This document shows positions 11,411 through 16,969 of a stretch of 64,000 nt of DNA, piece after piece. The stretch is from Clostridiaceae bacterium (GTDB lineage Bacteria; Bacillota; Clostridia; Peptostreptococcales; Tindalliaceae): positions 62,001 to 126,000 of the forward strand of contig JAABSW010000002.1 of the NCBI GenBank assembly GCA_011390155.1, given 5' to 3'. The position numbers and the translations under genes are program-made. Position 1 is the first letter of the stretch, and every line of letters begins with the position of its first letter. Under the pieces are notes generated by a model. The model did not search any database, had not been told where the DNA came from, and was given only the letters and a program-made list of their open reading frames with translations.

Positions 11411-12334
11411 TTAAAACAAGCGGTAAAGGTACCCGGCACCAACAGCCCCTACCAGGCTGAAGGCCAGGTACATCACAAACACCTTTCTCTTAACGATGGA
11501 ATAGACTGCAGCCATGGCTGGGATCGACGTTGCGGCACCCCCGATCATAAAGGCCAGTGCTGTTCCTTTGTCCATCCCCAGGTCCATTAATCCCCTGACA
11601 ACCGGCATGGCTGAAATACTACTGGCATAAGCCGGCACACCGATCAGCGCGGCCAGTAAAGGCCCTGCTTCACTTTCATTCCCCAGAAGACCAGCCACCC
11701 ATGACATGGGCACATACCTGGTGATCAAGGCTTCCAGAAAAAAAGCAATGAGGATATATTTTCCAATGAAGATTCCCATGTTTTTCATGTTTAGAAAAAA
11801 CTGAATCAAACGAACCAACATCAATTCTCTCCGCGTCAGTCCCTGTTCCATAAAAGCCTGGTTTGCCCCATTCTCCTCCCTGCCTCCAAACACCTTCAAT
11901 ACATTTTTTTCAATAAACCCGGACCGGGTCAGGTACAGGGTAACATACCCCGCTACCAAACCAATCACCAGCGTAGCCACCAAACGAGCCACTGCCATTT
12001 CTTTTCCCAAAATGCTATAGGTTAACACAAAGGATTCCGGACTCATCAGTGGAGAGGTAATCCAAAAGGCCATGATGGGTGCCATGGGGATGCCCGCCGC
12101 AAGCATTGCCGCTATGGCTGGAATCACCCCGCAGGAACAAAGTGGGCTGAAGGCCCCTGTTCCTGCTGCCACGGGCACAGAAGCAATCTGGCGTCCACGA
12201 AAAGCCTTCTCAAAATATACCTCCAGTTTAAAGGTTTTTATCAGGGATGCCACTGCAATGCTCAATAGAAAGAACGGAGCCAGGCTTATCACGGCCCCCA
12301 CAACAAACTGTATGACATAAATTATTATCTCCAT
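11411..12334 (-). CDS. DUF318/ArsP-type permease
   Basis: A 307-residue integral membrane protein of the DUF318 (YraQ/ArsP) permease family, with about eight hydrophobic segments. The signature GAFSPLCSCGVIPAI lies near residues 59-73, where adjacent cysteines are thought to engage a thiophilic substrate. Relatives export trivalent organoarsenicals or are linked to metal homeostasis. The ATG at 12334 sits 8 nt from AAGGAGG; an in-frame GTG at 12337 would be too close. It is the third gene after the cysteine-bearing MarR and the Cys-rich peptide and has its own copy of the MarR operator. Thiophilic metal or metalloid export is inferred from context, not shown. Confidence 0.85.
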   Translation of the reverse strand: MEIIIYVIQFVVGAVISLAPFFLLSIAVASLIKTFKLEVYFEKAFRGRQIASVPVAAGTGAFSPLCSCGVIPAIAAMLAAGIPMAPIMAFWITSPLMSPESFVLTYSILGKEMAVARLVATLVIGLVAGYVTLYLTRSGFIEKNVLKVFGGREENGANQAFMEQGLTRRELMLVRLIQFFLNMKNMGIFIGKYILIAFFLEALITRYVPMSWVAGLLGNESEAGPLLAALIGVPAYASSISAMPVVRGLMDLGMDKGTALAFMIGGAATSIPAMAAVYSIVKRKVFVMYLAFSLVGAVGAGYLYRLF

Positions 12335-12375
12335 CACTGGTTCCTCCTTACATTAACTTGTATGTCTTATGCATT

Positions 12376-12396
12376 ATTTGTATTATGCAATTATTG
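12376..12396 (-). promoter_or_regulatory. Second copy of the MarR operator, before the permease
   Basis: This 21-bp stretch matches 13101-13121 in front of marR at 19 of 21 positions. It contains TTGTATTATGCAA, an imperfect dyad, and keeps the minus-strand TACAAAT box that serves as -10 in the marR copy. It lies between the Cys-rich peptide stop and the permease start. Confidence 0.6.
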
Positions 12397-12404
12397 GGCG
12401 CAAG

Positions 12405-12560
12405 CTAACAACACCTACTATCTTTTTTGGTTTCAGCGCATTGTCCATCTGTATTTTTTTGCTTAGCTGGTTCTGTTGGGGAATTTGTCTCGCAACAGCT
12501 AACTGGTTTTCCTTTTGCCAGGGCATACAAATCCTTTAATGACATCTTTTGTTTATTCAT
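12405..12560 (-). CDS. 51-residue cysteine-rich peptide, unknown
   Basis: A short gene I translated by hand. The product begins MNKQKMSLKDLYALAKGKPV and has a central SCCET pair, a lone cysteine at residue 41 and a terminal CC, five cysteines in all. The rest is polar with many Lys, Thr, Asn and Gln. The ATG at 12560 has a strong CAGGAGG site about 8 nt upstream. It lies 25 nt after marR, and the permease follows 70 nt later. Paired cysteines in all three gene products suggest handling of a thiophilic ion, perhaps as a chaperone or buffer. I know no named family for it, and function is inference only. Confidence 0.7.
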   Translation of the reverse strand: MNKQKMSLKDLYALAKGKPVSCCETNSPTEPAKQKNTDGQCAETKKDSRCC

Positions 12561-12585
12561 CCTTAACACCTCCTGTTTTTCAGCG

Positions 12586-13080
12586 TTAACAGCAATTTGG
12601 ATTTGCCTGATCGAAGGCTTCCACCAAGAGTTTGGTCGCTCTCAAAACTTCTTCCACCTGGCCTTCAGGAAGAAACGCCACAATCTTTCGATAGTACTCT
12701 TTTATGTCTTTCTCCAATTTATCTGCTGTGACAGCTCCCTTGTCTGTCAGAGAAACCATCACAGTACGACGATCACTTTCGTCCCTGCTTCTGGAAACAT
12801 ACCCGTCCCTTACCAGGTTATCGACAATACGTGTCATGGTACTTGTTTGTGCATTCAATTTATCACTTAATTCGTTCATGGTAAGCTCAGGAGTCTGGCT
12901 CAGTTGGGTCAGTACATAGGCCTGGGAAGTTGTAAAACCATGTGGCTTAATTTGATCCCTTTCAAAGAGCTGCATCACACGCACCAAATGTTGTACGGTT
13001 TCTCCAATTTCTTCCACACAACAATCCCGATCATCTGCACAGCCGACCTGAGTTTTATTGATCATTTTGTTCTGGTTCAT
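12586..13080 (-). CDS. MarR-family regulator with N- and C-terminal cysteines
   Basis: A 164-residue winged-helix repressor. The HTH is LTMNELSDKLNAQTSTMTRIVDNL (about residues 66-89) and the wing carries DESDRRTVMVSLTDKG. Extra cysteines occur at both ends: Cys14, Cys20 and Cys21 in VGCADDRDCCVEE, and the terminal NPNCC. MarR proteins with terminal cysteines often sense oxidants, electrophiles or metals through thiols. AAGGAGG lies 7 nt before the ATG. Its promoter contains overlapping palindromes between -35 and -10, repeated before the downstream permease, so autorepression and control of the permease are likely. The inducer is unknown. Confidence 0.9.
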   Translation of the reverse strand: MNQNKMINKTQVGCADDRDCCVEEIGETVQHLVRVMQLFERDQIKPHGFTTSQAYVLTQLSQTPELTMNELSDKLNAQTSTMTRIVDNLVRDGYVSRSRDESDRRTVMVSLTDKGAVTADKLEKDIKEYYRKIVAFLPEGQVEEVLRATKLLVEAFDQANPNCC

Positions 13081-13100
13081 TGGTTTCCCTCCTTGTATTT

Positions 13101-13130
13101 ATTTGTATCATACAATTATTGTATTGTCAA
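13101..13130 (-). promoter_or_regulatory. marR promoter with overlapping palindromic operators
   Basis: Minus-strand TTGACA (13130-13125), 17-nt spacer, TACAAA (13107-13102). Within it are two perfect 13-bp dyads, TTGTATcATACAA (13103-13115) and TACAATtATTGTA (13111-13123). Their position between the promoter boxes is typical of steric repression. Confidence 0.7.
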
Positions 13131-16249: not shown

Positions 16250-16969
16250 CTATTCATCAAAAGCTTCAGTGACTTTCCATTCTTTCCACACATTACCTAC
16301 CAAGCCAGGACTTGGCTTCAACACCTTTTTACCCGGTTTCCAACCTGAAGGCGTGGCTTCTGTTCCCTTGCTGGCACGAACCAGTTGGAAGGCTTTCACC
16401 TGTCGGATGGATTCTTCCACGTTTCTACCGACAGGGGGTGTCAGCACTTCATATCCCTGAACAATGCCGTCGGGGTCGATGATGAACCTGCCTCTGGTTT
16501 CAACACCGCCTTCTTCGTCATAAATCCCATACATGGTTCCGATGGTACCACCCGGGTCTGAGCACATGGGAAAAGGAATGTCCTTTTCTATCATTTTTGA
16601 TAGTTCATGGTCATTCCACATTTTGTGAACGAACACACTGTCCACACTCATGGACAATACCTGAACATCCAGGTCTTTTAATACCTGATTTTTTTCAGCA
16701 ACTGCTGAAACTTCAGTCGCTCAGACAAAGGTGAAGTCACCGGGATAGAAACACAATAGCACCCACTTACCTTTGTATTCAGACAAATCGACATTAACAA
16801 ATTTTCCTTCAAAAAAAGCCGGTGCAGAAAATGGTGGCGCAGGTTTTCCCACTTTAATCATCGTTTGCTGTTCCTCCTTTACTGGTTCCATGACTGTACC
16901 ATCTGTAACCTCTTCCTTTTGTTTCTTTACTGCCGGTCGCTGGCATCCTGGTTTAAATTCTTCAGGCAT
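16250..16969 (-). CDS. prxU: Selenocysteine-containing peroxiredoxin (in-frame UGA at 16721-16723)
   Basis: Reduces hydrogen and organic peroxides. The reading frame runs from ATG 16969 (behind GAGGAGGTGACTGC) to 16250 but is crossed by one TGA at codon 83. That codon falls exactly where peroxiredoxins have the peroxidatic cysteine: [20 protein letters not shown]. Homology resumes at once after it ([45 protein letters not shown]) with no frame change. A stem-loop starts immediately behind the UGA, as in bacterial SECIS elements. The 239-residue product has an N-terminal Lys/Glu-rich extension of about 36 residues. Other cysteines are Cys9 and one in the PMCSDPGG segment. Selenoprotein peroxiredoxins are known from amino-acid-fermenting clostridia. 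Confidence 0.9.
16698..16723 (-). promoter_or_regulatory. bSECIS-like stem-loop directly after the Sec UGA
   Basis: On the minus-strand RNA the UGA (16723-16721) is followed at once by GCGACUG (16720-16714), a 9-nt loop AAGUUUCAG and CAGUUGC (16704-16698), a 7-bp stem with one G-U pair. Position and size fit a SelB-binding bacterial SECIS. Confidence 0.7.

Follow-up and report, generated by a model that had tools for sequence, protein, structure and literature searches.

A MarR-permease cassette with paired cysteines in Clostridia: a probable alarm and export system for arsenic compounds

The cassette and its relatives

We identified a compact cassette of three minus-strand genes in the window (the whole 64,000-nucleotide stretch of DNA that was analysed), encoding a MarR-type repressor, a short cysteine-rich peptide and an ArsP_1-family permease, with a palindromic operator occurring both ahead of marR and before the permease (Table 1). 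The three frames lie where the first-pass annotation had placed them, and its report of paired cysteines in all three products holds: the repressor carries them in a DCC motif and as a terminal CC, the peptide in SCC, C and CC motifs, and the permease in PLCSCG.

Table 1. Features of the cassette and of related operons (window positions, except in the last row, where each locus is named)
Feature	Position	Strand	Description
MarR-type repressor	12586..13080	-	164 aa; PF01047 57.7 bits, cut-off 24.6
Cys-rich peptide	12405..12560	-	51 aa; homologues in 5 other loci, same place
ArsP_1-family permease	11411..12337	-	308 aa; PF03773 150.3 bits, cut-off 32.3
Putative operator O1	13103..13115		palindrome TTGTATCATACAA, 12/12; overlaps -10 of the marR promoter; counterpart in 18/18 linked loci
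Putative promoter P1	13102..13130	-	-35 TTGACA 13125-13130, 17-bp spacer, -10 TACAAA 13102-13107
Putative operator O2a	12378..12390		TTGCATAATACAA on minus strand, between peptide and permease; 12/12
Putative operator O2b	12362..12374		weaker tandem copy, 16 bp beyond O2a; 9/12
C-terminal-CC MarR-arsM operons	L088 4112-5394; L089 3945-5779; L108 1029-2819; L110 1048-2823		

A scan of genome contigs, together with profile searches within both the class and the order to which the window belongs, yielded 18 loci in 17 genomes (the window included) in which a close relative of the MarR protein is followed by an ArsP_1 permease. Across the order, MarR matches at E <= 1e-60 occur in 16 of 393 genomes and are permease-linked in 15; the exception, L086 in genome G008, encodes a close MarR with no adjacent downstream permease and, by the same site search that was applied to the linked loci, with the operator at neither place. 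Twenty-five weaker MarR loci (L010 and L088 being one place) were checked and gave no permease match, plasmids held no MarR relative at E <= 1e-25, and viral contigs held no MarR relative. Comparison of flanking genes found no third gene recurring in more than three of the 18 loci, and since the neighbours vary in this way the unit is marR-(peptide)-permease, which bears out the earlier description of a self-contained regulator and exporter cassette.

Some related loci depart from this layout. A second copy of the cassette at L079 (3480-4534, G493:C64) keeps marR, the operators and the peptide, its permease being reduced to a 92-aa frame without PLCSCG. At L026 (3327-5371) the MarR has an N-terminal extension with two further CC, the permease loop holds three CC pairs, and behind the permease comes a second MarR, which is partial. 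A suspected permease with an in-frame stop at G000:C83 turned out to be a pair of distinct half-length ORFs.

Operators and the MarR protein

Each of the 18 permease-linked loci has the palindrome TTGYATnATRCAA in two places, over the marR promoter and ahead of the permease. At every locus, the site before marR and the one preceding the permease (behind marR, or behind the peptide where there is one) match at least 11 of 12 fixed positions, and the best operator score per locus was reached in at most 0.55% (upstream) and at most 0.2% (downstream) of 2000 Markov resamplings. The duplication noted in the first-pass annotation is thus real and conserved: in the window its best 21-mer agrees at 19 of 21 positions, and the extended 23-mer (12374-12396 against 13099-13121) at 21 of 23, while resampling the two intergenic stretches 60 times under a Markov model gave a chance mean of 14.25 and a maximum of 17 for the best 23-mer match. 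Across the 2.72-Mb genome there are three perfect copies of the palindrome TTGYATNATRCAA: the two described here, and one within a 449-aa coding region that we take to be MiaB-like. The copy between peptide and permease is present as described, although mostly as a tandem pair whose weaker second member had been overlooked: a second internal copy of at least 9 of 12 positions stands at exactly +16 in 13 of the 18 loci, against 1 of 468 at other offsets. Distant MarR loci whose proteins have no such cysteine pairs can carry the same operator (12/12 at L029, 11/12 at L030 and 10/12 at L031), and for this reason the DNA specificity may be older than the MarR cysteines.

A TTGACA-like -35 (TTGCAT in L026), spaced 16-18 bp from a -10 of TACAAT or TACAAA, precedes marR in 18 of 18 loci. 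The role of the internal site is less settled, as O2 could be a roadblock on read-through from P1 and not a second promoter. A plausible -10 (TACAAT or TACAAA) 18 bp after TTGTAT or TTGTAA at O2 is seen only in L028, L077, L080, L081 and L027, which favours a roadblock, yet a tandem whose copies are offset by exactly 16 bp, as found in 13 of 18 loci, would fit a dedicated, regulated promoter equally well. We give the roadblock somewhat less than an even chance; it concerns the internal site only and is compatible with the reading of the whole cassette set out below.

The window MarR has a single cysteine at C14 and two vicinal pairs, C20/C21 in DCC and C163/C164 in the terminal NPNCC-COOH. All 18 permease-linked MarRs have a CC before helix 1 and a C-terminal NP(N/S/K)CC, and the unlinked L086 protein has kept the first pair and lost the second. 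In an AlphaFold2 model (mean pLDDT 86.1; 19 sequences), which resembles MarR structures, the first pair lies just ahead of helix 22-47 and the second beyond the last helix, 142-159; by analogy with MarR folds, the two would meet across the dimer. The protein shares with AdcR/ZitR, OhrR, AbfR and E. coli MarR both the fold and a palindromic operator over its own promoter, but differs from all of them in its two vicinal CC pairs, one of which sits at the extreme C-terminus. Against the AdcR model NF038251 it scores 31.2 bits (cut-off 175), and its score against the NCBIfam model of OhrR is likewise far under the cut-off.

Permease, peptide and loop cysteines

The permease has only two cysteines, C67 and C69 of PLCSCG, and none in its central hydrophilic loop. 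It resembles ArsP (PF03773) in exceeding the family cut-off, in carrying a C(S/T)C motif (C67-S-C69) in a transmembrane segment, and in belonging to a small stand-alone detoxification cassette. It departs from the ArsP clusters described in PMC4435449, where LAV precedes the motif in cluster 1 and tPF in cluster 2, as its CSC is preceded by SPL; the cassette permeases of L084 and L085 have TPFCSC, the motif of cluster 2. The nearest NCBIfam models, SO_0444 (NF033936, 116.2 bits, cut-off 300) and SaoE (NF040736, 112.0 bits, cut-off 325), belong to the same superfamily and match over nearly the full length, but the scores are far under both cut-offs, as are those of the other permeases scanned. 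The AlphaFold2 model of the permease reached a mean pLDDT of only 59.7, too low for a fold search. Permeases of the PLCSCG clade occur at the marR cassette locus alone, with nine matches at E <= 1e-130 in 340 genomes and the next at 6e-63. L080 (3604-4791) and L081 (6235-7422) each have an additional ArsP_1-type permease upstream of marR on the same strand; it is the longer of the two and carries AVCSCT, which is cluster-1-like.

The first-pass annotation had proposed the peptide as a new component and had made this depend on its recurrence at related loci; homologues are found behind marR in five others (L024, L025, L077, L078 and L079). The window peptide consists of a KMSLKDLYALAKGK segment followed by the CC motifs (SCC, C and a terminal CC), its ATG being preceded by AGGAGG with an alternative GTG start at 12569, and the homologues share the start K-SLKELYRIAKGK, followed by CC or C motifs. 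The dN/dS ratio is 0.28-0.47 in the six of 15 pairs for which it was computable, silent sites being saturated in the remaining nine; the peptide is real and under purifying selection. With six of 18 loci carrying it, however, it is optional and no core part of the cassette. Pfam and NCBIfam hold no family matching the window peptide or the two homologues searched, and the PDB has no match for a six-sequence profile. Run against 386 genomes from the order, that profile found only six loci (the window included) in five genomes, and in all six the peptide lies between the cassette marR and its permease and nowhere else.

Several further candidates were set aside. When a three-sequence profile (A2) was run against the 391 genomes covered for the class, ten of them had matches at E <= 0.05, the window's own at 5e-27 and nine at 0.005-0.05; the ten loci of those nine genomes lie mostly inside long unrelated frames or across stops, and none is convincing. 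Two short frames with DLFxLNKGAAVDCCDL in G264 (L054, L058) resemble a dispersed repeat. A selenoprotein reading of the peptides of L024 and L025, which end KDC and then TGA, was rejected because read-through would cross the operator and because TAA or TAG terminates the remaining four peptides. Elsewhere in the window (16250-16969, minus strand), a peroxiredoxin frame contains one TGA where the peroxidatic cysteine is expected (FTFV-TGA-ATE), and since it stays open for 239 residues when the TGA is read as Sec, the product is probably a selenoprotein.

The longest hydrophilic stretch of the permease separates its two halves and is rich in K and R, so that by the positive-inside rule it would be placed in the cytoplasm. 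Cysteines in this loop were never seen together with the peptide: loop cysteines occur in none of the six peptide loci and in eight of the 12 loci without it (two to six each), no locus having both (Fisher p 0.013 over 18 loci). Among nine loop-reaching permeases of the PLCSCG clade, from which the L079 remnant was excluded, the peptide is present exactly when the loop is free of cysteines (five against four; Fisher p 0.008); the L024 permease is cut by a contig end. A tree-aware test, with L079 and L086 excluded from the permease tree, reduces this to two independent contrasts, both in the PLCSCG clade and in the predicted direction (sign test p 0.5). One of the two is the window itself, which groups with the loop-CC loci L022, L023 and L028 (99/95 support) and yet has the peptide and no loop cysteines. 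Neither feature is essential, since both are missing from four loci (L082-L085). The lack of co-occurrence, which only two independent contrasts support, suggests that a thiol relay may be borne either by the loop or by the peptide.

Ligand, mechanism and meaning

The choice of ligand is guided by four related operons in which a MarR with cysteines at its end is followed directly by arsM. In genomes G045 and G439 the MarR ends in KKNKCC, has its second CC in the helix 1-2 region and carries an 11/12 operator, and the arsenite methyltransferase scores 319.8 and 301.2 bits against NF008823 (cut-off 263). G493 and G454, which also hold the MarR-permease cassette, have a MarR-arsM pair with MarRs ending in KCCN or KCCS and again an 11/12 operator. 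The four MarRs thus share a KxKCC end, with one residue more in two of them. All four arsM genes exceed the cut-off (296-320 bits), and in three of the four operons arsM is followed by arsN1a (NF040503, over cut-off), an arsinothricin-resistance acetyltransferase. Because these four CC-ending MarRs stand directly upstream of arsM, trivalent (organo)arsenicals appear, from kinship, to be the likeliest ligand and are preferred over the general thiophilic ion first proposed. The cluster-2 ArsP motif TPFCSC in the cassette permeases of L084 and L085 speaks for them as well. The kinship has limits: the arsM-linked MarRs share only 26-31% identity with the window MarR and have their non-terminal CC elsewhere, and L090, which belongs to their group, lacks a terminal CC and lies ahead of a macrolide-type MFS pump, breaking the arsM link. 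An ArsM search of ten genomes gave matches over cut-off in four, G493 and G454 among them, and the window genome (97% complete) has no ArsM over cut-off. This absence would fit defence against methylarsenite released by neighbours, but it removes a direct link. ArsM matches with an in-frame TGA were seen in two Clostridia genomes (L107, L109) and are possibly selenoprotein ArsM, a type represented in NCBIfam.

We hypothesize that the cassette is a MarR-controlled thiol-relay exporter or detoxification unit for trivalent arsenicals, a reading to which we give about even chances. MarR dimers would occupy O1, which covers the -10 of P1, and the tandem O2, repressing both marR and the permease gene; the two cysteine pairs would capture a soft thiol-binding toxicant, likeliest a trivalent arsenical such as As(III) or methylarsenite, and the DNA would be released. 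The permease with its CSC motif would then export the toxicant, as its family suggests. The peptide, presumably co-transcribed with marR, could dock to a partner through its N-terminal segment and hand the toxicant to the permease through its CC motifs, and in permeases without a peptide the central-loop CC motifs could perform the hand-over in cis; this hand-over, in either form, is the weakest step of the scheme.

The same cassette might instead answer to a soft metal ion, Cu(I), Zn(II), Hg(II) or Cd(II), its permease being an SO_0444- or SaoE-like metal exporter. In favour of this stand the nearest NCBIfam models of the permease, namely SO_0444 Cu/Zn efflux and SaoE, and the presence of the cassette in the metal reducer Fervidicella metallireducens (L027). 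The CC-COOH end of the window MarR and peptide, moreover, also gives its name to the SAO organometal-system protein SaoC, the 'Cys-Cys-COOH selenoprotein' of PMC13188914, although, unlike SaoC, the peptide has no NCBIfam match and this end is missing from its five homologues. With the SO_0444 and SaoE scores so far under their cut-offs in every permease scanned, and with the related CC-ending MarRs preceding arsM and arsN1 instead of metal genes, we consider a metal ligand rather unlikely. A thiol-redox or electrophile sensor of the OhrR/AbfR kind, governing export of an organic compound, strikes us as improbable: AbfR and E. coli MarR, both with oxidation-responsive cysteines (in part according to structure-entry titles), do appear among the Foldseek matches of the MarR model, but the OhrR and AdcR models are far from matched, arsenicals and metals are the substrates associated with the permease family, and the hosts are anaerobes, Anoxynatronum and Tindallia among them. 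As for the peptide, it could serve to buffer or reset the sensor by taking ligand away from MarR, or act as a sacrificial chelator, with no delivery to the permease. It always lies directly behind marR on the marR side of O2 and so would be made with MarR rather than with the permease; its presence in the PLCSCG clade exactly when the loop has no cysteines nevertheless points to the permease, and we hold the buffering role to be unlikely.

Returning to the thiol-relay unit for trivalent arsenicals, we tentatively extend it to a joint reading that we think possible though doubtful, in which vicinal cysteine pairs form a movable arsenical relay, a lineage has swapped one carrier for another, and the regulator is the founding member of a family of MarR-type arsenical sensors. 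Under this joint reading the relay would be either the permease-loop CC motifs or a separate 45-55-aa helix-plus-CC peptide, the window lineage would have exchanged loop for peptide relative to its nearest relatives Anoxynatronum and Tindallia, and the sensor family would use its C-terminal CC and also run the arsM/arsN1 operons.

To our knowledge, the known bacterial arsenic sensors are ArsR-family proteins, and in ArsR a cysteine-based release frees the repressor ahead of arsenic genes. The role proposed here resembles that of ArsR/SmtB sensors in just this respect, cysteine-based release before arsenic genes, but the regulator is of the MarR family (PF01047). Searches of an open-access library of papers turned up no MarR-type arsenical sensor. 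The ArsP_1 permease family is, as we read it, the known part, here with a regulator type not usual for it: the one clostridial arsP case consulted, in passages of PMC11653729, comes with no named regulator and gives the activation as 'mechanism unknown', whereas the window permease would answer to a MarR. What appears new, within the literature so searched, is a candidate MarR-type arsenical sensor together with an undescribed optional cysteine peptide, and the cassette is probably a new kind of alarm and export system for arsenic compounds. If true, a sensor of the MarR type that ends in Cys-Cys would represent an invention separate from the ArsR-family sensors, bearing on how anaerobes switch on arsP-type exporters. 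If the peptide is in turn a metal(loid) relay, able to shift from a free protein into a permease loop and back, the cassette would offer a compact and testable model for the origin of small metal chaperones.
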